31,946 nt of DNA from a virus. The notes under the pieces were generated by a model. The model had not been told where the DNA came from. It ran no database searches and saw only the letters and a program-made list of their open reading frames with translations. The translations under genes and the position numbers were made by a program. Where the stretch lies: positions 1-31,946 of IMG/VR virus record IMGVR_UViG_3300029624_000067; one strand, written 5' to 3'. Position 1 is the first letter of the stretch, and every line of letters begins with the position of its first letter. Shown piece by piece: positions 14,222-29,798 of the stretch.

Positions 14222-14686
14222 TCAGTCTTCCCTGATCGAGCTGCCAGTCGTCAGACGCGGCGTCACACCATTGGCAACCGAGATGTTCGGCGTAACCGTG
14301 CCGTAATAGAGGATCTGCCCACCTGTCGTTGACGAGGTCAGGCCGACCGAGAAGTGCGTGACCGTCTCGGAGCCGCCCGACGCCTGCGGGAAAGCAATCG
14401 CATCGACAGGCGCAACGGTTGCCCCATCCGTCGTCCCCGTCGTCACGGACCAGCCGCCCGTCGAGGTCGAACGCGTCGTCGCCACGCGAGCGTAATCCGT
14501 ATAGGTGGATTCGTTGGTGCCTTGCTGGCCGGTCTCATCCGGAGACGCCGTATGCAGCGCAACCCAGAGATCGGTAGCTGCCGAGGATGCGGCGTTGCTG
14601 GCGACATAAGCGCCACTTTGGCCGATATCGCCAGCGTTGAAGATCAATTGCAGCAATTGCTGCTCAGTGGTATTGGTTTTCGACAC
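14222..14686 (-). CDS. Conserved phage structural protein
   Basis: 154 residues. Recognisable pattern: an N-terminal helix (QQLLQLIFNAG), then DLWVALHTASPDETGQQGTN, a YTDYARVATTR strand, then AIAFPQASGGSETVTHFSVG and ILYYGTVTPNISVANGVTPRL. Proteins with this LWVALHTADP...YARV...YYG pattern are common minor structural proteins in phages. The gene starts 6 bp after the connector gene ends. Exact role unknown. Confidence 0.7.
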   Translation of the reverse strand: MSKTNTTEQQLLQLIFNAGDIGQSGAYVASNAASSAATDLWVALHTASPDETGQQGTNESTYTDYARVATTRSTSTGGWSVTTGTTDGATVAPVDAIAFPQASGGSETVTHFSVGLTSSTTGGQILYYGTVTPNISVANGVTPRLTTGSSIRED

Positions 14687-17186: not shown

Positions 17187-18767
17187 TCAGCCTCGCCTCG
17201 TGTGGCGACGCGTGAGAGGCCCGTCGCGCATCTTGGCGTATTGAGGCAGATCATTGCGGCGCGCCTTGTTCAGACCGCGCCGCACAGCTGCATCGCCCTC
17301 CGAGAGCGCCATGACGCAAGCGTCTCCCTTACCAGGAGAGCGCCCGAGGCGTTCACGAACTTTCCCCTTGTCCTCAAGCAGAATACCGCGCGGCCCAACC
17401 GTGTAGACGGGCGCGGCCAGGTCGGCACGCAAGACCGGATCAGGCGGCAGTGCAATAATCGAACCGCCAGACTGATCGGGATCAAGCGCTTCACGAAACT
17501 TCCACCACGCAGCGGCGCGCCGGTTTGCAAAGCGAAGATTCCCGTCGACACTGCGACCGTTTCCAGTGTTCGCTCCGTTGAACGCGACGTAGTCGATGCC
17601 ATTGTCGCGCAGGCGCAGCGTGACTTGGCCACCGTAACCGCCGCCGACATCGACAACGATTACCGCATTGTTGCGGCGACGCTTCAAGATTGATGCCGCA
17701 CAGGCCGAACCGTCGGCCGTTTCTTCGCCTTGCACACTGTCAACTTCGGAATACCAGCCGCCGTGCCGACAGATCAACTCCGCTGCATCCTTGCCACCGC
17801 CGGCCGGGTCATATCCCATAGCCGTCATCGGCGTGGCTCGATGCCCTTCCGGTGTCCATCGGCCTTGAGCCTGAATGATCCAATCCGTCGGGATCACCTG
17901 GAAATCGGCATCCTGACGGGCAGCCATGAAGTTACCATCGCGGACGGCTGAGCGCAGCGGCTCGGGCAACGCATCAAGCGTCGCCTTGTATCCCGTCTCG
18001 ACGAGATAGGGGTTGTTCTCCAGCTTGCCTGGAATAAATGTGCGCGACTTGGGCAAAAACTCCTGCCCGTCGCGCTGGACCGGCCCCGGCCCGTCAACTT
18101 CCAGATCTTGACCAGTTTCATCGGTGATGAACCAGCGCAGTTCGCCATGCTTGGCCGGCTTGTCATAGGTGATGTCGAGCCAGGGGCGAAACATCTTGAT
18201 GACCCAGTCACCTTCCGCCGACATGGGCGGGTTGGTGGCGAGTACAGCGCGGCAGCGTTGACCCGGCTCCGATGAGCGAATCCAGCCAAGATGCAAACGG
18301 ACCTGAGACTCAAGGAACTGAACCGCTTCGTCGAAGACTTTCAGATCGAACGGGATGCCCATCCAGTCTTGCTCATCACCAGCATGCTGGCACCCGGCAA
18401 ACTGAATAAGTCGCCCATCCGCCGTCTTCAGCCGAGGCGGAGGCGAGCCATTGAAACCGTCCTTACCGCCATTGATCTGCAAGGCCCGGTCGATCAATCC
18501 GGTCAGGTTAGTGTACTGGCGGCGCAGAACGAGCGATCGAGCATGCTCCATGAAGGCGAGGCCGAGGCCAAGCTCGGATTTCCCAGATCCTCCGGCTCCG
18601 CCGTACAGCAAAATATCGGCCAGACTGAAATAAGCGTCGTATTGCGGGCCAACTGTTGGGTACCATCGGCGGACCGTGGCGATATAATCATCATCCAGTT
18701 GCTTTTTGAACTCGTCCGGAAGCCCCTCGAACATCCGGACGACTTGCTTGAGATCAATATGCGTCAT
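17187..18767 (-). CDS. terL: Terminase large subunit
   Basis: 526 residues, DNA-packaging motor. The ATPase domain has Walker A GGAGGSGKSE (residues 56-65) and Walker B FDLKVFDE (140-147, with D146 and E147 as Mg2+-binding and catalytic acids). A coupling motif region follows (AVLATNPP). The nuclease domain begins with the RNase-H-like strand MGYDPAGGGKDAAE (first Asp), then IVVDVGGGYGG, and a C-terminal DACVMALSEGDA. The start overlaps the stop of the next upstream gene by 4 bp. Length and layout are normal for the family. Its small-subunit gene is 9 kb away, which is unusual. Confidence 0.93.
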   Translation of the reverse strand: MTHIDLKQVVRMFEGLPDEFKKQLDDDYIATVRRWYPTVGPQYDAYFSLADILLYGGAGGSGKSELGLGLAFMEHARSLVLRRQYTNLTGLIDRALQINGGKDGFNGSPPPRLKTADGRLIQFAGCQHAGDEQDWMGIPFDLKVFDEAVQFLESQVRLHLGWIRSSEPGQRCRAVLATNPPMSAEGDWVIKMFRPWLDITYDKPAKHGELRWFITDETGQDLEVDGPGPVQRDGQEFLPKSRTFIPGKLENNPYLVETGYKATLDALPEPLRSAVRDGNFMAARQDADFQVIPTDWIIQAQGRWTPEGHRATPMTAMGYDPAGGGKDAAELICRHGGWYSEVDSVQGEETADGSACAASILKRRRNNAVIVVDVGGGYGGQVTLRLRDNGIDYVAFNGANTGNGRSVDGNLRFANRRAAAWWKFREALDPDQSGGSIIALPPDPVLRADLAAPVYTVGPRGILLEDKGKVRERLGRSPGKGDACVMALSEGDAAVRRGLNKARRNDLPQYAKMRDGPLTRRHTRRG

Positions 18768-19582
18768 GCGCGCGCGGAAACATCCGCATTACTCAGAGAA
18801 TCGACCCGGTACTCAGTGTCGTGCCCGTTCATCATCGGTGGCGGCGGCTGCAAGTCGATCTGGCGCCCGCCTTCCGGCTGCCTGTAGGCATGCTGCACCG
18901 CATGATGATCGGAGATCCATGTCTTGGCGACATACTCTTGATCGTCGAGCGCGCCGCGGATGAAATCGGCCTCGCGCTGGCTGTTCTGTGCCCTGGCGAT
19001 CGCTTCATTGTACCGCTGGTTGAGTTCGGCCTTGCGTGCCTGGATCTTGACATGCATCGGATCGACCTCGCAGAAACCGTAGAGCGGCGGCGGACGCATC
19101 AGATCGGACTCCGGCGGGATTGTCACCGTGATGCCCATCTTCTTGGCAAGCCAGATGAAGAACTGGCATCCCTGACGCTGCCACTGCCATTCCTCTTGGG
19201 CACTCATGTCAACGCCCCACAGCCCGATTTCATCGGCACCGGCCTTGATTGCCAGAGCAAACATCCATGCCAGGGAGGAAGTGAAGAAGAACGGGCCGAA
19301 CTCATCGACCATGTCCTTCGCCGGGTAGGCAACCGATCCGGGAATATCCGGCACCGGCGTGATCATGTAAACCGGCTTGGCCATCTCCGCCATGAACTGA
19401 ACATACTCCGGCGAGAACCATGGGTCGGATCTGTTCCACCGATGCAACTCGAACCAGGCGTCGGCCCGTTTGACATGCGGGCGCGCACCCGGCGAGCATC
19501 CCCAGATTTCCCAGGAATTATCGGCATAAGGAGCCAGCGCCACAGAAGATGGCGCTGACCCGATCAGAGCAATTTTTTTCAC
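18764..19582 (-). CDS. Rossmann-type phage protein resembling GT42/Maf-type fold
   Basis: 272 residues. It opens with KKIALIGSAPSS, an N-terminal strand-loop like the GxGPS start of GT42 sialyltransferases and the Maf/MptE-like domain. Later it has TSSLAWMFALAI, then GADEIGLWGVDM, which lines up in pattern with the TSGxxMxxxAIxxGYxxIYLxGIDF stretch of Campylobacter CstII as I recall it. The C-terminal third is a helical extension with charged repeats. Proteins of this kind occur beside terL in phages without a sugar pathway, so a link with the neighbouring Pse-like genes is only a hypothesis. Glycosyltransferase activity is unproved. Confidence 0.65.
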   Translation of the reverse strand: MKKIALIGSAPSSVALAPYADNSWEIWGCSPGARPHVKRADAWFELHRWNRSDPWFSPEYVQFMAEMAKPVYMITPVPDIPGSVAYPAKDMVDEFGPFFFTSSLAWMFALAIKAGADEIGLWGVDMSAQEEWQWQRQGCQFFIWLAKKMGITVTIPPESDLMRPPPLYGFCEVDPMHVKIQARKAELNQRYNEAIARAQNSQREADFIRGALDDQEYVAKTWISDHHAVQHAYRQPEGGRQIDLQPPPPMMNGHDTEYRVDSLSNADVSARA

Positions 19583-19591
19583 GAAGCGCTC

Positions 19592-20008
19592 TTAGGTTGA
19601 GGTTGACGTTGTGAAGGCTTCCACGGTCTGGCTCAAGACGGCATAGATAGCCGTGCTTATGCCGCGCAGGACGACGTTGTCGCCTTGGCCATCGAAGATC
19701 ACATGGGTGAAGGACGAGCCTGCCGTGGTCTGGAAATTGCCGGAGGCAAGACCGACCGAGATGTTGTTGGTGCCGGTCGAGGTGACGAACAGCTCCTTGA
19801 GCACGCCGGGGACCGGAGCGGCCATGGTATAAGCATCGCCGGCTGACGAGTTCAGCGTGGTCATGCCATCAGCGGGGATGACATCGGAAGTCGAGGCCGA
19901 AGTCGCTTCGGTGACGTTGGCTTGGAAGCCGTTTTCGGCATAGGCGCAGTCTTCAAAGCTTATGCCGAAGATGCGTCCATAGAGTGAGTGCTTGAGGCGC
20001 GGGGCCAT
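19592..20008 (-). CDS. Ser/Thr-rich beta-type structural protein
   Basis: 138 residues, ATG 20008 with a GGAGA ribosome site. The first about 25 residues are aromatic and charged, then the sequence is very rich in Ser, Thr, Ala and Gly (TEATSASTSDVIPADG, GTNNISVGLASGNFQTTAG) and ends in FTTSTST. It looks like a small virion protein made of beta strands. Its high Ser/Thr content makes it a possible O-glycan acceptor for the adjacent sugar pathway, but that is inference. Its own transcription probably begins after the terminator at 20075-20098. Confidence 0.65.
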   Translation of the reverse strand: MAPRLKHSLYGRIFGISFEDCAYAENGFQANVTEATSASTSDVIPADGMTTLNSSAGDAYTMAAPVPGVLKELFVTSTGTNNISVGLASGNFQTTAGSSFTHVIFDGQGDNVVLRGISTAIYAVLSQTVEAFTTSTST

Positions 20009-20129: not shown

Positions 20130-20402
20130 ATGACGCAAACTGTTGAAGACATCCCAGAACTATCAACCGCAGAAATTGCAGAGCGTCTGGTTGCATGGCG
20201 CTTGGCTGCGCAAGCTTTCCGTAGCCGCTACTCCTACAGGCTTTCCAATGGCCAAGTCCGACACGCAAACCCATCAAAACAGGCAGAGCTGGACGGAACC
20301 GCAAAATACGGCGAACAATTGCTCAAGCAGCGAACCGCCGCCGAACCGGAACACCTTTCCTCGACAGATACTCCGCAGCCTCGGCAGGTGTCTGATCGCT
20401 GA
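20130..20402 (+). CDS. Small plus-strand ORF, unknown
   Basis: 90 residues, the only plausible plus-strand gene left of 31 kb. It has AGAAGGAAAT 5-10 nt before the ATG and a protein-like sequence (IPELSTAEIAERLVAWRLAA, then a charged AELDGTAKYGEQLLKQR). The last 80 bp overlap the convergent HisF-like gene. No clear plus-strand promoter is seen. No domain is recognised. It could be a chance frame in the gap between two operons, so it is listed with moderate confidence. Confidence 0.5.
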   Translation: MTQTVEDIPELSTAEIAERLVAWRLAAQAFRSRYSYRLSNGQVRHANPSKQAELDGTAKYGEQLLKQRTAAEPEHLSSTDTPQPRQVSDR

Positions 20403-21075
20403 AACAAAACATCGCGCTGGCTGCAACAGCATGAGCACCATGTTTGAATGCAGCCGCGAAATCATTGTAGGACCCGGCTCCACCACATGCGACAACCGGG
20501 ATGCGAACCGCATTGGAGATCTGCTCGATCAGGTCGAGATTGTAGCCGTCCATCATTCCATCGCGGTTGATGTCGTTCAGGATGATCTCGCCGGCTCCGT
20601 AGGATTCAACTTTCCTGGCCCAGAGCATCGGGTTCGGTCCGGGCTTGCCCTTGCCGCATTCGCCGATGACGCGACCGTCCTTGACGTCAATCGAGACGAC
20701 GACCGCATTGGAGCCGAACTTCGTTGACGCATCGCGGATCAGTTCCGGACATTCAAGCGCGGCCGAGCCGATCGCGACCTTGTCGGCACCATGCCTGAGT
20801 GCGAGACGGAAATGCTCCAGTGTCCTGATGCCACCGCCGATGGTGATCGGCATGAAGCATTGCTCCGTCAGGTCGGAAATCAGATCGAAGTCAGGCTCTC
20901 TGCCATCAGGCGTTGCACCGATGTCCAGGATGACAAGCTCATCGACTTCCCTGGCCTGATAGATGCGAACTGACTGGCGGACATGGCCGACTGAGCGCCA
21001 GCTATCGAACTGGCGACCCTTGACGACCTGGCTGCCTCGGTAGAGGATGACCGGGATGATGCGTCTTTTCAGCAT
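20323..21075 (-). CDS. HisF-like ammonia-channel subunit (LPS/Pse amidination type)
   Basis: 250 residues, a complete (beta/alpha)8 HisF fold: N-terminal RRIIPVILYRGSQVVKG, DELVILDIGATPDG, PITIGGGIRT, DKVAIGSAAL, VVSIDVKDGRVIG, INRDGMMDGYN and IPVVACGGAG. In histidine HisF, Asp11 (in CLDVKDG) is catalytic; here the aligned position is Leu (VILYRG), as in the HisF copies that partner WbpG in lipopolysaccharide gene clusters, where HisH-HisF supply ammonia. The second Asp (SIDVK) is kept. It follows the WbpG/PseA-like gene by two genes, which supports an amidination role. No HisH is found in the window. Confidence 0.82.
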   Translation of the reverse strand: MLKRRIIPVILYRGSQVVKGRQFDSWRSVGHVRQSVRIYQAREVDELVILDIGATPDGREPDFDLISDLTEQCFMPITIGGGIRTLEHFRLALRHGADKVAIGSAALECPELIRDASTKFGSNAVVVSIDVKDGRVIGECGKGKPGPNPMLWARKVESYGAGEIILNDINRDGMMDGYNLDLIEQISNAVRIPVVACGGAGSYNDFAAAFKHGAHAVAASAMFCFSDQTPAEAAEYLSRKGVPVRRRFAA

Positions 21076-21114
21076 GCCATGCCTCGCCCTGCCACGCCGC
21101 GCCAGCCAAGCCTG
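21073..21114 (-). repeat. Phased GGCNN repeat overlapping the HisF-like start
   Basis: On the minus strand, eight GGC triplets occur at spacings of 5,4,5,5,5,5,5 nt (GGCTT GGCTG ... GGCAT GGCATG), ending at the ATG of the HisF-like gene. Similar pentanucleotide-phased GGC runs occur in other phages; the function is unknown and could affect translation initiation or slippage. Confidence 0.6.
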
Positions 21115-21163
21115 CCGTAGTCAGCCTCGGTGTTTCAGCAGAAGCCGAAACGGATGCACAGCA

Positions 21164-21865
21164 TCAGCTCCCGTAGACCATAGCATAGCGAAACCAGCGC
21201 CCGGCGGTGTGTTCCGGGAAACCGTCGTCAAGACAGCTCATGATGTCGGTCGATCCGGCTTCAAGCATCAGCTCGGCCTCGCTTGTCCGCCTGCGGAGCG
21301 GCGACAAAAGCGGCCTTGCATAGCGAGCCTTGCCATCGTAAATTGGTTCGTATTCATCGGAATGGCGCAAATGCACTTCGATGATGGTGCCGCCGATCAT
21401 CTCGATGTTCATCTTGCCTTCGCCTATCCTCAAGGTCCTGACGACGTGGCCGGCCCGCTCTTCGATCGCAGGCGTCACGGTGTAGGCTTCCCACTTGGTG
21501 AACAGGCCGAACACCGGATGACGATCCCCTTTGACAGCTCGGATATCGGTGATCTTGCCGTCGTGAACCATGGTGTCAACCGAAACATGATCCCCCTTGG
21601 CAAGAGGCATCCACAAGAAACCGGGCGCTTCGGCAATGTCTTCGTCGTCTTGTGCGAGACTGGCGCCGAGGGACAGTCCGTGCAGATTGACGATCGGCTT
21701 CAGGACGACGGGGTACTTGCCTGGCAGATCGCCCTTCTCTCCCGTGTAAAGGCCGTATTTGACGCCGAGTGCATCGTAGAGCAGAGTCTTGTGGTAGATC
21801 CAGCGCAAAGGACGGTTGAGGCGGTAGGCCTCGCTGTCATTGGCTGCGTCAGCAAGGATATGCAT
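21164..21865 (-). CDS. ATP-grasp-like protein in sugar operon
   Basis: 233 residues. It suggests an ATP-grasp fold: PVVLKPIVNLHGLSLGA (a nucleotide-contacting Lys with a following loop), a GDHVSVDTMVHDGKITDI strand pair, then MNIEMIGGTIIEVHLRHSDE, which resembles the metal-binding (E/N)xxxR region. ATP-grasp enzymes join a carboxylate to an amine or thiol using ATP. It lies 6 bp after the WbpG/PseA-like gene and before the HisF-like gene, so it probably acts on the same sugar or on a carrier. The family assignment is by pattern and moderate; no substrate can be named. Confidence 0.55.
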   Translation of the reverse strand: MHILADAANDSEAYRLNRPLRWIYHKTLLYDALGVKYGLYTGEKGDLPGKYPVVLKPIVNLHGLSLGASLAQDDEDIAEAPGFLWMPLAKGDHVSVDTMVHDGKITDIRAVKGDRHPVFGLFTKWEAYTVTPAIEERAGHVVRTLRIGEGKMNIEMIGGTIIEVHLRHSDEYEPIYDGKARYARPLLSPLRRRTSEAELMLEAGSTDIMSCLDDGFPEHTAGRWFRYAMVYGS

Positions 21866-21871
21866 GCAAGA

Positions 21872-22996
21872 CTACGCGGCCTCGGCGTGCGCGAATTCTT
21901 TCAGGATCGGCCTGTTGTCCTCGACGCCGGAGAACAACGACCAATCGGTGAAGCTTTTGAACGGCTTCATCATCAGCCAGCCGCGCGTTACACCTATACG
22001 ATCACATATCTCACTCATCCAAACACCCATGAAACTCTCGGGAAAGCACCCGTCGCGCTCTTTGACAACAGCGTAAGCCTCGTCCCGCGAAATCAGGCCA
22101 TTGCGGATATCCACGCTGATCTGAGCGCATAGCCGGCCATAGCCGAACTTGCGATACATCAAATGATCGTGCAGTCCGGTCTGAGCGTTATCGTTGTTCT
22201 CGAATTCCCACCAGTCACCGGGATAGGACAGCATGCACTGCATCCCGTGCTCCATAGCCACGGTGGCATTGCGGTGGCTGTCCCAAGGGTAGAACTGGCC
22301 AAGGAAAAATGCCGTGACATCCTGCAGACGCTTCTCATCCGGCATCAGGTAATCCTGCATGTCGGACAAGGTGATGCCGAACATGCCAACCACATCTGCA
22401 GGGCGAAGACCGAGATGCCCTCCGAACTCGGTGATCCAGCGGCGCGTCATGACCCTGGCCTCGTCCGTTCCGATCGGGCCGCCATAGCTTTCCTGCGGGT
22501 TCTCGCCGTAGAAGATCGTCTTGATGCCAAGATCGGCGGCAATGCGGAACGGGGTGCAGAAGATCGAGACGTGTTCCGGCCAGGATATATCCCCAACCAG
22601 ATCCAGACCTATCTTGTTCAGCTTCGCCCGGACATCGCGCCGCGGCGTCACCTCGATCGTGGTGGCATGCCGTGCCAGATTGTCGATATTCTTGCGACCT
22701 ATGTCCGTCAGATGGCATGTGGTAGCCGTGACGACAAGCGGCTTGGCTCCGAGTTCGATCAGCTTGAGAACCTGCCAATGGCTGTCCTTGCCCCCGGAGC
22801 TTGGCACGATGCAGTCATAACCGCTTCCGTTCTTTGGCATCGTCTCAAGAATGCGCAAAAGTTCGGCCTCGCGCGCTGACCAGTCGACCTGGTCGCGCTT
22901 GCGATGGCTAACGCAGGCAGAGCACTCGCCGTCAATGAAGGCGGTATCCGGCCTCGTGGTCGGCATCAGACATGTGCGGCAGCGAGTGAAGCTCAT
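21872..22996 (-). CDS. pseA: N-acetyl sugar amidotransferase, WbpG/PseA-like
   Basis: 374 residues. It starts with two Cys pairs (C6-x2-C9 and C25-x2-C28) that form a putative zinc or iron ribbon, then the PP-loop ATP-binding motif SSGGKDS (66-72). These are the marks of the WbpG/PseA family, which turns a sugar N-acetyl group into an acetamidino group using ammonia. In Campylobacter PseA makes 7-acetamidino pseudaminic acid; in Pseudomonas WbpG acts in O-antigen synthesis with HisH-HisF. It overlaps the upstream methylase gene by 4 bp. The product of this phage enzyme, Pse or another sugar, is not decided by sequence. Confidence 0.85.
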   Translation of the reverse strand: MSFTRCRTCLMPTTRPDTAFIDGECSACVSHRKRDQVDWSAREAELLRILETMPKNGSGYDCIVPSSGGKDSHWQVLKLIELGAKPLVVTATTCHLTDIGRKNIDNLARHATTIEVTPRRDVRAKLNKIGLDLVGDISWPEHVSIFCTPFRIAADLGIKTIFYGENPQESYGGPIGTDEARVMTRRWITEFGGHLGLRPADVVGMFGITLSDMQDYLMPDEKRLQDVTAFFLGQFYPWDSHRNATVAMEHGMQCMLSYPGDWWEFENNDNAQTGLHDHLMYRKFGYGRLCAQISVDIRNGLISRDEAYAVVKERDGCFPESFMGVWMSEICDRIGVTRGWLMMKPFKSFTDWSLFSGVEDNRPILKEFAHAEAA

Positions 22997-23613
22997 GACC
23001 GCTTCTCCAGGAGGAATGCCGTGATGTCATCTTGCGGCGCATCCTCATCGCCGCGCCAGAAAAATTCGTAGTGGACGCAGCGCAGATCAGGATATCGTGC
23101 CATCATTTCGCGGGCAAAGTCGCGTTTCCAGAGCTTGCCGGCATGGCCGCGATACGGCACCTCGACCGGCTCCGGGCTGAAATACTCGGCAATCAGGATA
23201 TTACGTTTGCTGGCACGATAGAGGACATCGTAGGCCTCGAAGAGATCGCTCGGAGCGATGTGGATCAACAGACCTTTGCTGAGAACCAGATCGTACTGGC
23301 CCCAGTCTTCAGCCCCGTTGAGCATGTCCTGCTCAAAAACGTTGACATAGCCGAGAGAGCGGAGATGCTCAGCAGCTTCGGGGTTGACCTCAACAGCCGA
23401 TAGCGCGACATGGGGATCAATGTTGCGAAACGCCTGCAAGTTTGCTCCCCGATTGGCCCCGAACTCCAAAATATTTGGTGGCCAATCGCAGATCTCCTGA
23501 TCCAGCATGGTCCGAAAGAACACCTCATTCGCGTTGACAAGCTTCGTGCCATCATTGCGTGCCGTGTACTCTGTGCCAAACGCGCCGCGCCAGAACTCTG
23601 CCGTCTCACTCAT
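22993..23613 (-). CDS. Pseudaminic-acid-associated methyltransferase
   Basis: 206 residues. It begins ETAEFWRGAFGTEYTARND, the diagnostic opening of the methylase family found beside pseudaminic acid genes. A Rossmann SAM-binding site follows (ILEFGANRGANLQAFR, about residues 48-63, the usual motif I with acidic residue later in VALSAVEVNPEAA). Such enzymes are proposed to methylate the nonulosonic acid, probably O-methylation, but the exact atom is not known to me. It overlaps both neighbours by 4 bp within the operon. Confidence 0.82.
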   Translation of the reverse strand: MSETAEFWRGAFGTEYTARNDGTKLVNANEVFFRTMLDQEICDWPPNILEFGANRGANLQAFRNIDPHVALSAVEVNPEAAEHLRSLGYVNVFEQDMLNGAEDWGQYDLVLSKGLLIHIAPSDLFEAYDVLYRASKRNILIAEYFSPEPVEVPYRGHAGKLWKRDFAREMMARYPDLRCVHYEFFWRGDEDAPQDDITAFLLEKRS

Positions 23614-24473
23614 GCTGCCTGCACCCTCAGATCGCTGTAGACATTATCATCGTCGGCCGAACCGGATGCGCGCCAGGCAAGATTGCAGCCCAGTGTAAGA
23701 TAGCGCATTTCGTGGGGCTCGATCGAGAACTTCGCATCCAGGCCGCCATCCAACCGGGACAAAGTGAAATGCTTCTCGATGATGCATGCGCCGCGCGCAA
23801 TGGCGGCGACGGCGGCAATCGATCCGCTTGCAACGTCCGTGTGATCGGAGAAGCCGACGACATTGGCCTCACGCTTCAGTGCTGAGATCCTGTCCAGATT
23901 TGCCTTCTCGATCGGGCATGGGTATTCGGAGACACAATGCATGACGGCCAGATCAGGGCCAGCCGGCTTTGCCGCATCGATCGCGCGACCGACATCGGCC
24001 ATTGCGCCCATGCCGGTTGATATGATGAGCGGCAGGCCTGTTGACGCAGCCTTCCTGATCAGTGACAGATTGGTCAGGTCGAACGAGCTGATCTTGAGAG
24101 CCGGCATTCCAAGGCCAGCACAAAACTCGACGGCGCTCTCGTCGAAGACGGACGAGAACAGCGTGATGCCATTCTCTGCGGCATGGCGCATCAGATCCGG
24201 GAACCACTCGCGCGGCGTATGCGCTTTGGCGTAGAGTTCGCCGAGCGTCATGCCATGCCATGGGCCGGATGCCAGAATGTAATCGGCTCCGCCGCGGGCT
24301 GCAGCAATCGATGCCGGATCGAAACACTGCAGCTTGACCGCATCAGCGCCGGCATGCCTGGCAGCCATGATAATCTGGACCGCCCTGTCGAACGAGCCAT
24401 TGTGATTGCAGCTCATTTCGGCGATCACATAGGGCGGATGGTTCGGGCTGATCTCGCGGCCGGCGATGTTCAT
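23610..24473 (-). CDS. pseI: Pseudaminic acid synthase-like (PseI/NeuB family), without SAF domain
   Basis: 287 residues from ATG 24473, which forms an ATGA overlap with the upstream stop; an earlier in-frame start at 24506 is less likely. The NeuB-type TIM barrel is complete: VIAEMSCNHNGSFDRAVQI (16-34), GADAVKLQ, KISSFDLTN, IISTGMG, MHCVSEYP, VGFSDHT, EKHFTLSR (233-240) and GGLDAKFSIEPHEM. The GG(P/L)DxxFS pattern is closer to PseI than to sialic-acid NeuB. The enzyme would condense phosphoenolpyruvate with a hexosamine. The usual C-terminal SAF (antifreeze-like) domain of about 60 residues, which helps bind the substrate across the dimer, is missing; the chain ends soon after the barrel. 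Confidence 0.85.
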   Translation of the reverse strand: MNIAGREISPNHPPYVIAEMSCNHNGSFDRAVQIIMAARHAGADAVKLQCFDPASIAAARGGADYILASGPWHGMTLGELYAKAHTPREWFPDLMRHAAENGITLFSSVFDESAVEFCAGLGMPALKISSFDLTNLSLIRKAASTGLPLIISTGMGAMADVGRAIDAAKPAGPDLAVMHCVSEYPCPIEKANLDRISALKREANVVGFSDHTDVASGSIAAVAAIARGACIIEKHFTLSRLDGGLDAKFSIEPHEMRYLTLGCNLAWRASGSADDDNVYSDLRVQAA

Positions 24474-24694
24474 GCCTTGCACTTCCGCCATTCGGCTTCG
24501 CTCCACGGAAGCTGTGCGGGCGCTTCGCGCGCCTCAACCAACCTAGCGTTCGGATACGCCTTGCGCACCAATGCCAGGCGGTGTTCGATTTCATCATCAT
24601 CGAATGTCATTGGTGCCGCCACATCACCCGAAACGAAGATCGGCGTCCATCCCGTCCATTTGCCTGGACTCTCAACCCATATTCCACGTTTCAT
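24470..24694 (-). CDS. Small protein in Pse-like operon, unknown
   Basis: 74 residues, overlapping both neighbours by 4 bp, so it is translated with the operon. N-terminal half is aromatic and Pro/Gly-rich (RGIWVESPGKWTGWTPIFVSG), C-terminal half is a charged helix (DDDEIEHRLALVRKAYP). No known domain is seen; it is too short and too different to be PseG, the hydrolase missing from the pathway. Confidence 0.7.
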   Translation of the reverse strand: MKRGIWVESPGKWTGWTPIFVSGDVAAPMTFDDDEIEHRLALVRKAYPNARLVEAREAPAQLPWSEAEWRKCKA

Positions 24695-25089
24695 GACTCA
24701 AGCTCGTAGGTCTGTTGGCAGAGACGGAAACCGAGGCGCTCGAATAGCGCGATCGACTTTGCGTTCTGCGGATTGATGTTGGCAAGGTAGCGTCGCGGTC
24801 CGTGCTTTGCCATCATAGCACCGACAGCCTCTGTTCCAAACCCTCGCCCCTGGCACGACCGAAAGATGCCTATGCCGATCTCATTTTGATGTGTAAGATA
24901 AACGGCGCCAACAATGCCTTCATTGATCAGCTGCCAGTCGGCATAAGGGCGACTGCGAACGAATTTGACATGCTCGACCCAGCTTGGCATTCGCTTGTGC
25001 GAAATAGACTCGTGCGGTTTGCGCTCTTCCATGAGATTCCAAAGAATATCAAAAGCGTACGGATGCTCGTAAACGTCAGTGAGTTGCAT
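24691..25089 (-). CDS. pseH: GNAT acetyltransferase, PseH-like
   Basis: 132 residues from ATG 25089, which overlaps the upstream gene by 14 bp; a longer frame to 25146 is rejected. It has the GNAT layout: EIGIGIFRSCQGRGFGTEAV (residues 70-89) contains the RxxGxG-type acetyl-CoA loop (QGRGFG), and the C-terminal NINPQNAKSIALFERLGFR is the classic helix-strand that closes the site. PseH N-acetylates the 4-amino sugar in pseudaminic acid synthesis. The position between PseF-like and PseI-like genes supports that role. Confidence 0.8.
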   Translation of the reverse strand: MQLTDVYEHPYAFDILWNLMEERKPHESISHKRMPSWVEHVKFVRSRPYADWQLINEGIVGAVYLTHQNEIGIGIFRSCQGRGFGTEAVGAMMAKHGPRRYLANINPQNAKSIALFERLGFRLCQQTYELES

Positions 25090-25747
25090 GGATCGCCTCA
25101 ATGTACCGTCGATTGATGTCATCAGCACGGCGGCGCTCGAATTCATGCCAGATCGTCACATAATCTTCTATCGTGTCCAGGGTCAGGCGGATGTGAGCCA
25201 AATTGGCTTCTGCAGCGACGTTAGGCCCAAGACATATCGGACGGGCATACATCCACGGGGTGACATGTTCGCGTTCATGTGCACTCGCGGCGCTGGCATC
25301 GGCCTTGTGCAGCAGCGCTGCGTCGAACACTTCGCAGTCATAGCCGTGCGGCCACGTCCGCGGCCGCACATTGCTGACATAGCCGCGATGCTCCCGGTGC
25401 GCTTCGAGCACTTTCTCGCAGACTTTGGCGTCGATCAGAGGACAGTCCGCCGTGATGCGCATGACGACATCCGCATTAACGGCCTTGGCGGCGAGAGCGT
25501 AACGAGCCAAAACATCATGCTCGGGGCCGCGGACAATCGTCGCTCCAGCATTTCTGGCAAAGCTAACGATCATGTCGCTGTCATCGTCACCCGAGATGGC
25601 GGCGACGACGTGATCCACACCGTCAATCCGCCGGCAACGCTTTACGACTTCCTCAATGACCAGCCTGCCAGTCGGCAGCGGCAGCATCACCTTGCCTGGC
25701 AGCCGGGAGGATTTCAGCCGCGCCTGGATGATACAAGCGGTGATCAA
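25076..25747 (-). CDS. pseF: CMP-nonulosonic acid cytidylyltransferase, PseF/SpsF-like
   Basis: 223 residues. The opening IIQARLKSSRLPGKVM is the nucleotide-binding signature of the SpsF/CMP-KDO synthetase family, and the central RITADCPLIDAKV matches its sugar-metal site. PseF activates pseudaminic acid with CTP to make the CMP-sugar used by transferases. The neighbour genes give the PseF reading; by sequence alone it could be another SpsF-type cytidylyltransferase. It is coupled to both neighbours by short overlaps. Confidence 0.8.
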   Translation of the reverse strand: MITACIIQARLKSSRLPGKVMLPLPTGRLVIEEVVKRCRRIDGVDHVVAAISGDDDSDMIVSFARNAGATIVRGPEHDVLARYALAAKAVNADVVMRITADCPLIDAKVCEKVLEAHREHRGYVSNVRPRTWPHGYDCEVFDAALLHKADASAASAHEREHVTPWMYARPICLGPNVAAEANLAHIRLTLDTIEDYVTIWHEFERRRADDINRRYIEAIHATH

Positions 25748-26013
25748 CTGACATCCTCCCCGCCGTGAACTTTCCCTGACTGGTCCAGCAGCTCGATGGT
25801 CATGTCGCCATCGTCAAATTTGATAATCTTTATATCGCGCTCTTCCAGCTTGTCGAGCCCTAGGCACGCTAGGAATTCGCGCTCCATCTTCTTTGGGACC
25901 GCAATGCTCACAAACAGCCTTCCATTGCTTGACCGACGAACAGTGCCCTTGCGGTGAAGCTTGAAAGGCCTGTATATGCCCGTGACACGGGGTTTCGTGT
26001 CTCCATCGGTCAT
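25744..26013 (-). CDS. Small protein in Pse-like operon, unknown
   Basis: 89 residues from ATG 26013, sharing one base with the upstream stop (TAATG). It has a basic N-terminal half (FKLHRKGTVRRSSNGRLFVSI), a short helix (KKMEREFLACLGLD) and an acidic end. No recognised domain. It lies where PseC and PseF genes meet in the operon, so it may be an accessory, but its role cannot be read from the sequence. Confidence 0.65.
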   Translation of the reverse strand: MTDGDTKPRVTGIYRPFKLHRKGTVRRSSNGRLFVSIAVPKKMEREFLACLGLDKLEERDIKIIKFDDGDMTIELLDQSGKVHGGEDVS

Positions 26014-26621
26014 TACGCGAACACCGGGGACTTGCTGAGATCCGCGTAGACCGGCGTCGGCAGATCCGGATTGTCCCGGCTGAATTCGGCTGCCGTCAGC
26101 TTGCAAAGCAGCTGCGCTGCAGTGTCGGCATTCATGTAGCAATGCCAGCCGATCATATCGAAGTAATCTTCATTGGCTGGCACGCCTTCAGTTCTGCCAT
26201 CAAATCTGGCGCGGCGGAACCAGGCATCGGCCTCGTCATTGTCATGCAGGATTGCGCCGCCTTGCGAGGTGCCGAGGATCTTGCTGGCGTGGAATGACAG
26301 GCATTGCATTTGCCCAACGCGAAACATGCCGGCGCGAAATCGGCGCGCGCTGTCCCAGACAGGCAATGGCATCAGCTGATACTCGCCTTCCCAGATCAGA
26401 TATTCGAATGCAACGCGGTGGCCGGCGTGGATGATCGACTGCGGCACCGAGACATAGGTCTCAGCCGGTATCGTAACGGTTTGTGGACCGCTCTGCGTCT
26501 TGTGCCATGCGCAAGCAAGCAGCAATGCCATAGTGCAGCTGTTCGTCGTCACGGCGTATCGTGCGCCGGTATAGCTGCACAGCTCAGCCTCGAAATCACG
26601 CACGACCTGAAACTGTTTCAT
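26013..26621 (-). CDS. pseC: Compact PLP sugar aminotransferase, PseC/DegT-like
   Basis: 202 residues. It keeps the N-terminal core of DegT/DnrJ/EryC1 aminotransferases: FEAELCSYTGARYAVTTNSCTMAL (PLP phosphate-side loop), VTIPAETYVSVP, a DSARRF segment (D90, likely pyridine-nitrogen partner) and FHASKILGTSQGGAIL with the Schiff-base lysine K114. About half of the usual 380 residues, including the C-terminal domain, is absent, and the part between strand and lysine is compressed. PseC adds the 4-amino group to the PseB product. The stop is real and in frame with coupling to the next gene, so this is a naturally short version, not an assembly break. Activity is uncertain. Confidence 0.78.
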   Translation of the reverse strand: MKQFQVVRDFEAELCSYTGARYAVTTNSCTMALLLACAWHKTQSGPQTVTIPAETYVSVPQSIIHAGHRVAFEYLIWEGEYQLMPLPVWDSARRFRAGMFRVGQMQCLSFHASKILGTSQGGAILHDNDEADAWFRRARFDGRTEGVPANEDYFDMIGWHCYMNADTAAQLLCKLTAAEFSRDNPDLPTPVYADLSKSPVFA

Positions 26622-27481
26622 GCAGCTTTTGCCTCAACCATGCCAAGGGCGAGCCGGAGATCAGCGACGCTCATCCGCCTAGCGACGTCGCTGGTCTTGC
26701 CGTCGGCCATGCCCTCGTGCTTCTTTTCCCAGGCCGGAAGTCCGAGAATGCTCGGCGATGCGTCCATTGCCGTCACCAGATCGCCGACGCGGTAGGCCGG
26801 CAGGTCGGGAATGGCAAGCTCGCCGCCCTTCATCGTCGCGACCGTATCCAGAACAAGACCGACAGCTTCGTCAATCGTCATATAGAACCGCGTGCAGTCC
26901 GGGTCGGTGACAGGCACTATTCTAGATCCGCTAGCAATCATCTTTTGCCATTTCGGCACGATGCTGCCAGCGCTGGCCCACACGTTCCCATATCGAACCG
27001 ACGCGAACCGAGGGCCTGAAGCCGACACGGTGTTGTTCGCCGCCAAGATTGCCGCCTCCGCGAGTGCTTTCGACTGACCATAGGCCGAGCACGGCTGCCA
27101 TGCTTTGTCCGATGAAATGAACAGCACCTTCTTGACACCGGCATCCTGAGCAGCTTCAATCACATTGATCGTGCCGTCAACATTCGTTCGGATCATTTCG
27201 ACAGGGTTGTAAGCGCCAACCTCAATCCGCTTCAGCGCCGCGGCGTGAACGACAACATCAACCTCAGTCATCGCCCGCCGAAGCCGGCTTTGATCACGCA
27301 CGTCACCGATGAAGAAGCGGAGCCGCTCATCATCATTGAGATCAGCGCGCAAATCAGCCTGGGCGTGCTCGCTGCGACTGAGGATGCAGATCCTCTCGGA
27401 GAGCTTTGCATCCAGCAGTCGGCGCACGAAATTCCGGCCGAAGAACCCGGTGCCGCCGGTGACAAGAATGCTACCCAGCAC
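26618..27481 (-). CDS. pseB: UDP-GlcNAc 4,6-dehydratase/5-epimerase-like, PseB
   Basis: 287 residues, start GTG 27481. NAD(P)-binding GGTGFFG at residues 9-15; the family-specific AALKRIEVGAYNPVEMIRTN (81-100) is close to PseB; active-site region SSDKA (123-127) and YGQSK (134-138, Tyr-Lys pair of the SDR fold). PseB starts the pathway by removing water from UDP-GlcNAc and inverting C5. It is the first gene of the operon and couples to the aminotransferase by an ATGA overlap. A related capsule dehydratase (FlaA1/CapD type) is the only close alternative. Confidence 0.85.
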   Translation of the reverse strand: MLGSILVTGGTGFFGRNFVRRLLDAKLSERICILSRSEHAQADLRADLNDDERLRFFIGDVRDQSRLRRAMTEVDVVVHAAALKRIEVGAYNPVEMIRTNVDGTINVIEAAQDAGVKKVLFISSDKAWQPCSAYGQSKALAEAAILAANNTVSASGPRFASVRYGNVWASAGSIVPKWQKMIASGSRIVPVTDPDCTRFYMTIDEAVGLVLDTVATMKGGELAIPDLPAYRVGDLVTAMDASPSILGLPAWEKKHEGMADGKTSDVARRMSVADLRLALGMVEAKAA

Positions 27482-27539
27482 TGACTTTTACCTCGGCACG
27501 TTTCTTGCGCGCTGCAGCTATCTTGACCAACCAGCTCAT
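27471..27539 (-). CDS. 22-residue ORF at the operon boundary
   Basis: A short frame, ATG 27539 (TGATG overlap with the upstream stop) to TAG 27471, reading MSWLVKIAAARKKRAEVKV and then SAG. It ends inside the start of the PseB-like gene. The coupled start suggests real translation, either as a leader peptide of the operon or as the left-over beginning of a gene interrupted when the sugar operon entered. Too short to classify. Confidence 0.35.
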   Translation of the reverse strand: MSWLVKIAAARKKRAEVKVSAG

Positions 27540-28024
27540 CACAGATTGCCAGGCTTCGGGATCTCTTCGAACGTTACCGTGCCCTGCATGCTTACAGCGC
27601 TGTCATCGGTGCGGACGTGGAAGCGCTGACCAAGGTCAAGTACAGGCATCTCGACTTCATCCGGCCTGTAGCAAAAGGTGTTTTCGTCGAAGAAGCCGTT
27701 GTAGAGGACTTCCTGACTGGCCGTCGAAGCCAACGACGTAGACGGCCCGACGATCGAGCTTCCAGCCGTTGGCGCAGCGGACCAGCCCTTGAGATTGACA
27801 GGCGTGACGGTCGCGCCGCCGCTTGTGCTCGATGAGCCGCGGAGAAGCTGGACGCCGATGCTGCCCTGATCCGATGAAATCGCAGCCAAGTCAACGCATC
27901 TGATCCTGACACGGTTTGTCGTCGAGGCGAGAACGCCGATCAGATCATGCGCCGTGCCGGATGTCAGGCCGGTTGACTTGAACGACGCCGTGTGAACCGA
28001 ACCGGAGTAATAGGGTTGTCCCAT
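27539..28024 (-). CDS. Ser/Gly/Thr-rich beta-type structural protein
   Basis: 161 residues. It begins MGQPYYSGSVHTASFKSTG and contains long Ser/Thr/Gly stretches (LRGSSSTSGGATVTPVN, AGSSIVGPSTSLAS), with an aromatic C-terminal part (LYNGFFDENTFCYRPDEVE) and an ending FEEIPKPGNL. It looks like a small virion protein of beta structure. The gene starts right after the small terminase stop. It is one of two Ser/Thr-rich virion-type proteins that flank the sugar operon. Confidence 0.65.
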   Translation of the reverse strand: MGQPYYSGSVHTASFKSTGLTSGTAHDLIGVLASTTNRVRIRCVDLAAISSDQGSIGVQLLRGSSSTSGGATVTPVNLKGWSAAPTAGSSIVGPSTSLASTASQEVLYNGFFDENTFCYRPDEVEMPVLDLGQRFHVRTDDSAVSMQGTVTFEEIPKPGNL

Positions 28025-28534
28025 CTATTCGGCTTCCTTTTCTTGTTCTTCTATGCCCTGCGCAAGCTGGAAAGCAATCCAGCGGGCCTTATCGATGACG
28101 TTGATGTTTTCAGGTGGAATGAGAGGCGCGCCGTCTTTGCCGGTGACTTCGTTCTTGTCTTTCTGGCTTAAAAGTTGCTTGCCGAGCCATATTAGCATAG
28201 ACGCATTACCACCCTCAGCGGCTTTCACCTGCATCCGGCGCAAGTTAATCTTGCCTTGCCCTTCTCCAATTTGCCACGCCTCTTCTGCCTTTTTATGTGT
28301 GTTAAGAAATTGCCAGAAAGTCGGGCGTGATACTTCAAGAAATGCAGCGGCTTCCTCTTTCGTGGCGTGGAGGATGGCGAGCTTGCGAATTGTTCTCAGC
28401 GTCTCTTCGTCAGGCGACAGCTTTGGCTTTCTTCCCGCCTTGCTTTTTTCCTTTGGCTTCGTGCTCTTCTCTGAGCGCTTTGATCGCGACGCCGTAGCAG
28501 TCGCTTGAGTTTTTGTCCGGGTTGAAGCGGGCAT
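28025..28534 (-). CDS. terS: Terminase small subunit
   Basis: 169 residues. The N-terminal 33 residues are Lys/Ser/Thr/Arg-rich and probably disordered; then AGRKPKLSPDEETLRTIRKL, a helix-turn-helix-like ATKEEAAAFLEVSRPTFWQFL, LRRMQVKAAEGGNASMLIWLGKQLL and a Glu-rich end. This matches small terminases, which recognise the packaging site and recruit the large subunit. The first 125 bp overlap the 3' end of the methyltransferase gene in another frame; no later ATG keeps the HTH, so the long overlap is taken as real. A GTG or TTG inside the overlap cannot be excluded. Confidence 0.82.
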   Translation of the reverse strand: MPASTRTKTQATATASRSKRSEKSTKPKEKSKAGRKPKLSPDEETLRTIRKLAILHATKEEAAAFLEVSRPTFWQFLNTHKKAEEAWQIGEGQGKINLRRMQVKAAEGGNASMLIWLGKQLLSQKDKNEVTGKDGAPLIPPENINVIDKARWIAFQLAQGIEEQEKEAE

Positions 28535-29741
28535 CTTTCATCTCTTCAAAGGTTTGGCCGGTCTCCTCATGGATTGCTTGCTGGCCGGTGAAAGTCTGCC
28601 AGCGCTCAACGGCGACATCGACATATTGAGGGTAAAGCTCTATTGCGTAGATGTGACGGCCTGTTAGCTCGCCTGCCATGATCGTAGTGCCGGAGCCCGA
28701 GAACGGCTCATAGACGGCTTGGCCTGGGCTTGAGTTGTTACAGATCGGGCGGCGCATGCATTCGATGGGCTTTTGAGTGCTATGGCCGGTTTCAGACTTC
28801 TGCGGTTTGTCGATCTTCCAGAGCGTGGATTGCGTTCGGTCGCCTTGCCAGTGTCCGTTGCGCTTTTCTCGCACTGCGTACCAGCACGGCTCGTGGCCGG
28901 GATGATAATTCCCTCGCCCAATAACGAATTGGTGCTTAGCCCATGCAATCTGAGCTCTTATTTCCAAGCCCGTAGAAATCAAACTTTCTGCTACGACATG
29001 AGCCTTATTTCCTGCATGCCAAACATAAGCAACATTGCCGGAGAAAAGCGCCCAAGCTTTGGACCAGTCCGCGTTATCGTCGTTAGATACTTTGCCACGT
29101 GCGCCATTCGGCGTATTCTTCTCAGGCATAGCGTTTTCACGCCAAGAGCTGTCATACTCCACCCCATAAGGGGGATCAGTCACCATCAGATGCGGCTTGA
29201 CGCCGTTCAGGCATTTATCGACATCACTGGCAACGGTTGAGTCACCGCAAAGCAGCCGATGGTTGCCGAGTATCCAGACATCGCCAAGGGCGGAAACGGG
29301 ATTGACTGGCGGCTCTGGTGTTTCCTCGGCGCGCTCTTGCTCTTCATCGTCTTGCATGAGGCGATTCAGCTCGGGAGCGTCGAAGCCGGTCAGGTCAAGA
29401 TCGAAGTCCAGCTCCTTGAGATCGCCAAGCTCCAGCTTGAGAAGGTCGTGATCCCAATCCGTTTCCTGTGCGACACGATTGTCAGCAAGGCGATAGGCTT
29501 TGGCCTGTTCCGGTGTGAGATCGGCGACGTGGACTGGGACTTGCTTGAGGCCGAGCCGCTTTGAGGCCAGCAGGCGCGTATGACCCGCAATGATCACACC
29601 GTCCCTGTCAACGATGATCGGCTGACGGAAGCCGTACTCCTTGATGGACTTTGCGACCTTGGCAATCGCGCTATCAGGACACTTGCGCGGATTTTGCTCG
29701 TAGGGCTTGGGCTTGTCGATGGCCCAAAGTTCAATGTTCAT
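28410..29741 (-). CDS. ParB-like / DNA methyltransferase fusion (beta-class orphan)
   Basis: 443 residues from ATG 29741; a GTG two codons upstream is an alternative. Residues 1-95 form a ParB/Srx-like domain (QNPRK, IKEYGFRQPIIVD, GVIIAGHTRLLA). The methyltransferase part has DPPY at 189-192 before the SAM site FSGSGTT (near 355), the beta order, so it is an N6-adenine or N4-cytosine enzyme. No restriction partner is in the window, so it is an orphan modification enzyme, perhaps protecting phage DNA. Its last 42 codons overlap the small terminase gene, and it ends with a basic tail (KGKKQGGKKAKAVA). Confidence 0.88.
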   Translation of the reverse strand: MNIELWAIDKPKPYEQNPRKCPDSAIAKVAKSIKEYGFRQPIIVDRDGVIIAGHTRLLASKRLGLKQVPVHVADLTPEQAKAYRLADNRVAQETDWDHDLLKLELGDLKELDFDLDLTGFDAPELNRLMQDDEEQERAEETPEPPVNPVSALGDVWILGNHRLLCGDSTVASDVDKCLNGVKPHLMVTDPPYGVEYDSSWRENAMPEKNTPNGARGKVSNDDNADWSKAWALFSGNVAYVWHAGNKAHVVAESLISTGLEIRAQIAWAKHQFVIGRGNYHPGHEPCWYAVREKRNGHWQGDRTQSTLWKIDKPQKSETGHSTQKPIECMRRPICNNSSPGQAVYEPFSGSGTTIMAGELTGRHIYAIELYPQYVDVAVERWQTFTGQQAIHEETGQTFEEMKDARFNPDKNSSDCYGVAIKALREEHEAKGKKQGGKKAKAVA

Positions 29742-29798
29742 GTCCACTCGTGCAAAATCTTGCTTCCCAGAAGCGGTTTCCCTTAGGAGCTGGCATGG

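Follow-up and report, generated by a model that had tools for sequence, protein, structure and literature searches.

The viral record IMGVR_UViG_3300029624_000067 of IMG/VR, analyzed here over its full 31,946 bp (the window), carries a block of sugar-biosynthesis genes inside the packaging region of a phage genome. Nearly all of its genes lie on the minus strand, as do all window features described below. They run in the following series: a ParB/methyltransferase-like gene, the terminase small subunit (TerS; 28025–28534, phrog_309), a 161-amino-acid (aa) protein, the eleven-gene block, two genes termed g138 and g272, the terminase large subunit (TerL; 17187–18767, phrog_979/2), the portal, and head and tail proteins. 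The block comprises eleven open reading frames (ORFs) at 20323–27481, most of which abut or overlap, in agreement with a preliminary description of eleven coupled genes between the two terminase genes of a podovirus. Because a head-tail adaptor, tail tubular A/B-type proteins, and head proteins are encoded, the phage is by gene content a podovirus, of an uncultured short-tailed group. TerL resembles its counterparts from Limnohabitans phage DC33, Acidovorax phage AP1, and Bordetella phage BPP-1, with ~40% identity; in phages AP1 and BPP-1 the terminase genes stand side by side, without sugar genes.

Profile searches against NCBIfam/TIGRFAM, Pfam, and PHROGs make the presence of a cytidine monophosphate (CMP)-nonulosonic acid pathway well supported at the sequence level. 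They bear out the earlier assignment of PseB-, PseC-, PseF-, PseH-, and PseI-like enzymes, a Pse methylase, and a WbuX/HisF amidination pair. The block opens with a PseB-like uridine diphosphate (UDP)-N-acetylglucosamine (GlcNAc) 4,6-dehydratase (26618–27481, 287 aa; TIGR03589 E 3e-85, PF02719) and a DegT-type aminotransferase, here called mini-PseC (26013–26621; PF01041/TIGR03588), of 202 aa as against the usual ~380. These are followed by a PseF/SpsF-like CMP-sugar synthetase (25076–25747; PF02348, CTP_transf_3, E 1e-22), a PseH-like GNAT N-acetyltransferase (24691–25146; PF13302), and a PseI/NeuB-like nonulosonic acid synthase (23610–24506; PF03102 E 4e-69, well above cutoff). Downstream lie a pseudaminic-acid-associated methylase (22993–23613; TIGR03587 E 1e-62, above cutoff), a WbuX/WbpG/PseA-type N-acetyl-sugar amidotransferase (21872–22996; TIGR03573, 241.6 bits, above the cutoff of 203.2), and its HisF/WbuZ-like partner (20323–21075; TIGR03572 E 4e-77). 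Few operon proteins match phage families in PHROGs.

PseB, PseI, and PseC score below the NCBIfam equivalog cutoffs because they are short or divergent. For PseB, TIGR03589 is the top NCBIfam match at 285.9 against a cutoff of 407.75; for the synthase, PseI is the top equivalog at 278.8 bits versus 216.6 for NnaB, with the PseI cutoff at 340.25; and for mini-PseC, the top match is PseC over the N-terminal part only, at 54 bits against 423.5. WbuZ is likewise the top match of its protein, ahead of HisF, at 258.7 bits against a cutoff of 299.7. The PseH-like protein has its GNAT domain at the expected place and no match to the PseH equivalog; the cytidylyltransferase has no PseF equivalog match in the NCBIfam search. 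Active-site residues are conserved: D125-K126-x7-Y134-x3-K138 of PseB is unvarying in 10 phage relatives, and E30, K58, Q60, H222, E244, and H246 of NeuB are unvarying in the alignment. D90, S109, and K114 are the same in all 13 phage mini-PseC proteins that were lined up with DegT enzymes of known structure, and these appear to be the residues expected at the pyridoxal phosphate site, retained despite the shortening. The window NeuB stops before the C-terminal SAF-like domain, which most relatives in the lineage retain. Similar mini-PseC enzymes are found in a Flavobacterium phage, a Synechococcus phage, and huge phages; mini-DegT aminotransferases of ~200 aa are encoded by the unrelated large phages at loci L003, L004 (Flavobacterium phage vB_FspM_immuto_2-6A), L005, and L006, in L004 and L005 inside glycosyltransferase-rich islands.

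A WbuX scan and a g272-alignment scan yielded ~95 viral loci, with certain contigs represented more than once. Near-complete modules occur at 22 loci in other IMG/VR contigs, a few being second views of one contig, and mostly adjoin the same structural genes as in the window. PseB, PseC, a cytidylyltransferase, PseH, and NeuB are present in 22/22, WbuX and HisF in 21/22, and the methylase in 19/22. As far as gene content can tell, the sugar pathway is a conserved part of a whole phage lineage. Two gene orders prevail: the B-C-F-H-I order previously noted as the common bacterial one holds for the window and generalizes only in part, since many relatives have B-C-cytidylyltransferase-methylase-WbuX-HisF-H-I. 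Two distinct types of CMP-sugar synthetase, PseF/SpsF-like or NeuA-type, hold the CMP-activation slot, so that selection appears to act on the supply of a CMP donor. At L014:7297–8316 and L028:4763–5782 a sulfotransferase-domain protein adjoins the module, and a protein judged by eye to look similar is encoded at the module-less L037:1522–2088. L103:673–2050 (minus strand) holds PseH and NeuB on the opposite strand, ~8 kb from g272, with no other module genes in the stretch read; its gene content suggests a rearranged or decaying module.

Between the block and TerL lies g272 (18764–19582, 272 aa), which overlaps the TerL start by 4 bp. TerL is downstream of g272 relatives in 76/78 loci, and at least three module genes are found upstream in 27 of the 30 loci having at least 6.5 kb there. 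The protein has no Pfam or NCBIfam match at thresholds, and sequence searches of the PDB with g272 and g138 gave nothing useful. We modeled g272 with AlphaFold2 from 69 sequences (mean predicted local distance difference test score, pLDDT, 89.6). The top VIA-align match of this model was the Maf glycosyltransferase 5mu5 (Z 12.2 across 152 residues, root-mean-square deviation 2.7), followed by thiamine pyrophosphokinase (Z 10.7), HPPK (10.6), and CstII (10.3); Foldseek placed the CstII sialyltransferase at the top (E 5e-6). Maf enzymes O-glycosylate Ser/Thr of flagellin with nonulosonic acids, and the central Maf domain resembles Cst-II (PMC11339370). A Maf/CstII fold for g272 is supported by the model, from which we infer a candidate transferase of CMP-nonulosonic acid. 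Extra g272-like copies occur at L019:3553, L021:2972, L023:3526, L025:5773, L106:10858, and L119:10930, some of them embedded in the sugar module and others arranged in tandem next to TerL.

Its neighbor g138 (19592–20008) is, by predicted fold and synteny, a Ser/Thr-rich, spike-like virion protein and the putative acceptor. A relative lies upstream of g272, mostly directly, in 58/64 g272 loci plus the window; the contig leaves no space for it in four of the six exceptions, and the remaining two, in a divergent group, have a different protein there. Ser and Thr make up 26% of the g138 family, compared with means of 8–19% in most other families of these phages and 30% in the virion family g154. 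The window protein ends in TTSTST, and at least three of the last six residues are Ser/Thr in 51/59 family members. The predicted model (pLDDT 79) consists of a beta sandwich preceded by an arm of ~30 poorly ordered residues; its top Foldseek match is the Pa223 capsid spike (E 1e-3), and tailspikes (attachment domains) and T4 gp9 score Z 9–11. WD-40 matches from the PDB sequence search look like repeat or composition matches and were set aside.

Other Ser/Thr-rich proteins accompany g138. Just downstream of the portal gene, the protein at 14222–14686 (30% Ser+Thr) matches PF23140, 'Podophage GP4 fiber I protein gp80', and is a second candidate virion acceptor. The 161-aa protein between TerS and PseB (27539–28024, 24% Ser+Thr) has weak relatives in L039, L041, and L046 and is probably structural. 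Many relatives also encode, upstream of g138, a small Ser/Thr-rich family whose members begin roughly as M-R-x-x-G-x-x-H-P-T (for example L016:9807–10205, L017:11503–11856, and L084:3764–4144), probably another virion protein.

These observations of gene content, conservation, synteny, predicted folds, and conserved active-site residues suggest the following scheme. Starting from host UDP-GlcNAc, PseB, mini-PseC, and PseH would form a UDP-2,4-diacetamido-trideoxyhexose; UDP would be removed by an enzyme that is not recognizably phage-encoded, and PseI/NeuB would use the product and phosphoenolpyruvate to make a pseudaminic-acid-like nonulosonic acid. WbuX with HisF would give the acetamidino form, methylation by the methylase may follow, and PseF would produce the CMP donor; each step from PseB to the CMP sugar has a matching enzyme, bar UDP removal. 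Attachment by g272 to Ser/Thr of g138 would then yield particles with a sialic-acid-like coat, the whole amounting to a reduced, flagellin-type system for O-glycosylation in the cytoplasm. We infer the order of steps, the exact sugar, the transferase activity, the acceptor, and the benefit, which may be protection, adsorption, or particle stability. Virion modification in general we regard as likely. Flagellin-type cytoplasmic O-glycosylation, with a CMP-activated nonulosonic acid as the donor and a virion spike as the target, seems fairly probable, and we lean to a similar degree toward g138 and g272 jointly as acceptor and transferase. For the broadest formulation—that a large uncultured podophage lineage makes its own sialic-acid-like sugar via reduced enzymes and uses a free-standing Maf-like transferase for O-glycosylation of its capsid spikes—the chances appear about even.

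The preliminary description had offered three purposes: coating the virion, changing the host surface to block superinfection, or modifying a virion protein. The evidence favors the last, because in nearly all relatives TerL is accompanied, in an unchanged order, by genes for a Maf/CstII-like protein and a Ser/Thr-rich spike-like protein. The sugar could instead be destined for the host surface (lipopolysaccharide, capsule, flagellin, or pilin), with g272 acting on a host glycan or protein and the surface so altered during infection that superinfection is blocked. Bacterial surface sugars are made by such pathways, glycosyltransferase-rich islands are found in large phages, and lipo-oligosaccharide is a substrate of GT42 enzymes such as CstII. 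Export of a polymer is nevertheless disfavored by the lack of any match to the Wzx flippase (PF01943) or Wzy (PF04932) on 14 module-bearing contigs, and a host-surface role, which we consider unlikely, also fits poorly with the way nearly every relative keeps the transferase-like gene together with TerL and a gene for a virion protein. That the sugar goes to another virion protein—the Gp80-family fiber protein at 14222–14686, the protein at 27539–28024, or the major head protein—with g138 a mere neighbor, fits the presence of further Ser/Thr-rich virion proteins; g138 is, however, nearly always beside g272 and has the Ser/Thr tail, and we hold such an acceptor to be rather improbable.

Several findings weigh against g272-mediated decoration of g138. 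The g272 fold is common to thiamine and pterin pyrophosphokinases (Z 10.7, 10.6), and profile comparison (hhalign) with MptE-like/Maf proteins is weak (4.7% probability), albeit in the expected register, pairing the GVDM segment of g272 with their G(F/I)DL segment. PseG was not matched in 17 records including the window, many of which may be incomplete. L037 and L039 have g138 and g272 without sugar genes, and three contigs of 28–51 kb that bear g272 gave no NeuB match; the g138-g272 pair is therefore not strictly tied to the phage pathway, and such module-less relatives might draw on a CMP sugar of the host or on some other donor. Moreover, g138 is equally Ser/Thr-rich in relatives without the module, and other virion proteins are Ser/Thr-rich as well (14222–14686, 30%; 27539–28024, 24%). 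Nor do distance correlations pair sugar and transferase: that between NeuB and g272 reaches r 0.79, but portal and NeuB correlate as strongly, so that specific NeuB-g272 coevolution was rejected and the signal is one of co-inheritance with structural genes. Some of these points would suit a packaging-linked g272 of the nucleotide-binding or pyrophosphokinase type, unrelated to the operon, with a host enzyme transferring the sugar: its fold is shared with such kinases, it sits beside the terminase genes, and it occurs without sugar genes in L037, L039, and Microcystis phage Mvi-Yong1342-1. We give this only a slim chance, given that the top fold matches are Maf (VIA-align) and CstII (Foldseek), that g272 is present in nearly all module-bearing loci, and that extra copies lie inside the modules of L019, L021, L023, and L025.

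Regarding origin, the same block beside the same TerL and portal genes recurs in dozens of other contigs, and a chimeric join to bacterial DNA, which the preliminary description had named as a concern, was discarded on that ground. The GC content of the sugar block (0.57–0.59) equals that of the remaining window. The tree check it had proposed for descent from one bacterium did not support a recent acquisition of that kind: 34/37 phage WbuX proteins form their own clade (100/99), and module gene distances follow TerL distances, most weakly for PseC. Three bacterial WbuX proteins, 42–47% identical to that of the window, fall in a neighboring group, other sampled bacteria being more distant. The closest bacterial operons have full-length PseC and WbuX-HisH-HisF in a row, and by that comparison the phage version looks reduced. 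The HisH/WbuY glutaminase subunit was not matched in 14 records, many of them possibly incomplete. Proteins of family c15, in the PseH-NeuB gap of four relatives, were considered as PseG substitutes and dropped, having no recognizable family.

Among 50,697 phage records none matched WbuX or the g138 relative used as query, and a single one, Microcystis phage Mvi-Yong1342-1, has a distant g272, without the module. A provirus search of 84,980 genomes returned only three g272 relatives, all on contigs of metagenome-assembled genomes; L118 and L119 hold structural genes of phage type, and a divergent module is present in L119 as well. When viral contigs were scanned with NeuB or g272 as single proteins, the strictness of the patterns left almost no matches.

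Three ORFs of the block received no Pse assignment from profile searches. Those at 25744–26142 (132 aa; the start is uncertain and may be internal) and 24470–24694 (74 aa, in the PseH-NeuB gap) match no family. The 233-aa protein at 21164–21865 matches phrog_3577 only (E 5e-7), shows weak likeness to a Synechococcus phage protein, has no relative in other modules, and lies outside the conserved module. Upstream of TerS, 28410–29747 encodes one protein with ParB-like and DNA methyltransferase domains, relatives of which lie near the module in several contigs.

Phage sugar genes are usually read as tools for changing the host surface or are filtered from surveys; contigs carrying such sugar islands were excluded from one survey (PMC11360552). 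We found no paper on nonulosonic acid pathways in phages, within an incomplete coverage of the literature. The absence of PseG and HisH, the shrunken PseC, and the proposed roles of 18764–19582 and 19592–20008 go beyond the preliminary description. With a pathway, a likely transferase, and a likely virion acceptor together, phage-made sialic-acid-like virion decoration becomes directly testable, and the lineage offers PseC and the amidination system in naturally reduced form. It also raises the question of nonulosonic acid synthesis without PseG. If the scheme is true, it would be a viral protein-glycosylation system analogous to flagellin glycosylation.

Known systems resemble parts of this arrangement. 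In mycobacteriophage virions, capsid and tail tube subunits are reported to bear glycans at their C-termini (Freeman et al. 2023, as cited in PMC12619734). The likeness lies in phage virion proteins as glycan carriers, as proposed here. We know of no phage-made nonulosonic acid pathway for that glycosylation. The Bacillus subtilis sps operon for legionaminic acid, in which SpsF is the cytidylyltransferase and the product is placed on the spore crust (PMC7439481), has SpsM/C/D/E/F matching PseB/C/H/I/F-type enzymes; it includes SpsG, whereas the phage has no recognized PseG. Of WbuX/WbuY/WbuZ (WbpG-HisH2-HisF2), the phage has homologues of WbuX and HisF, HisH being unmatched in the 14 contigs. 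The predicted g272 fold is alike to Maf (5mu5) and the GT42 enzyme CstII over ~150 residues, without the N- and C-terminal domains of Maf. Closest overall is the PseB-C-H-G-I-F plus PseA pathway of Campylobacter and Aeromonas flagellin: the enzyme families appear to be the same, an acetamidino step and a CMP product are expected here as well, and there a Maf-type transferase modifies a protein in the cytoplasm that is later assembled on the surface. The phage version differs in having no PseG, a PseC of 202 aa, and, in the window, a NeuB without the SAF-like domain; its transferase would be a single Maf-like core domain, and its acceptor a virion spike.

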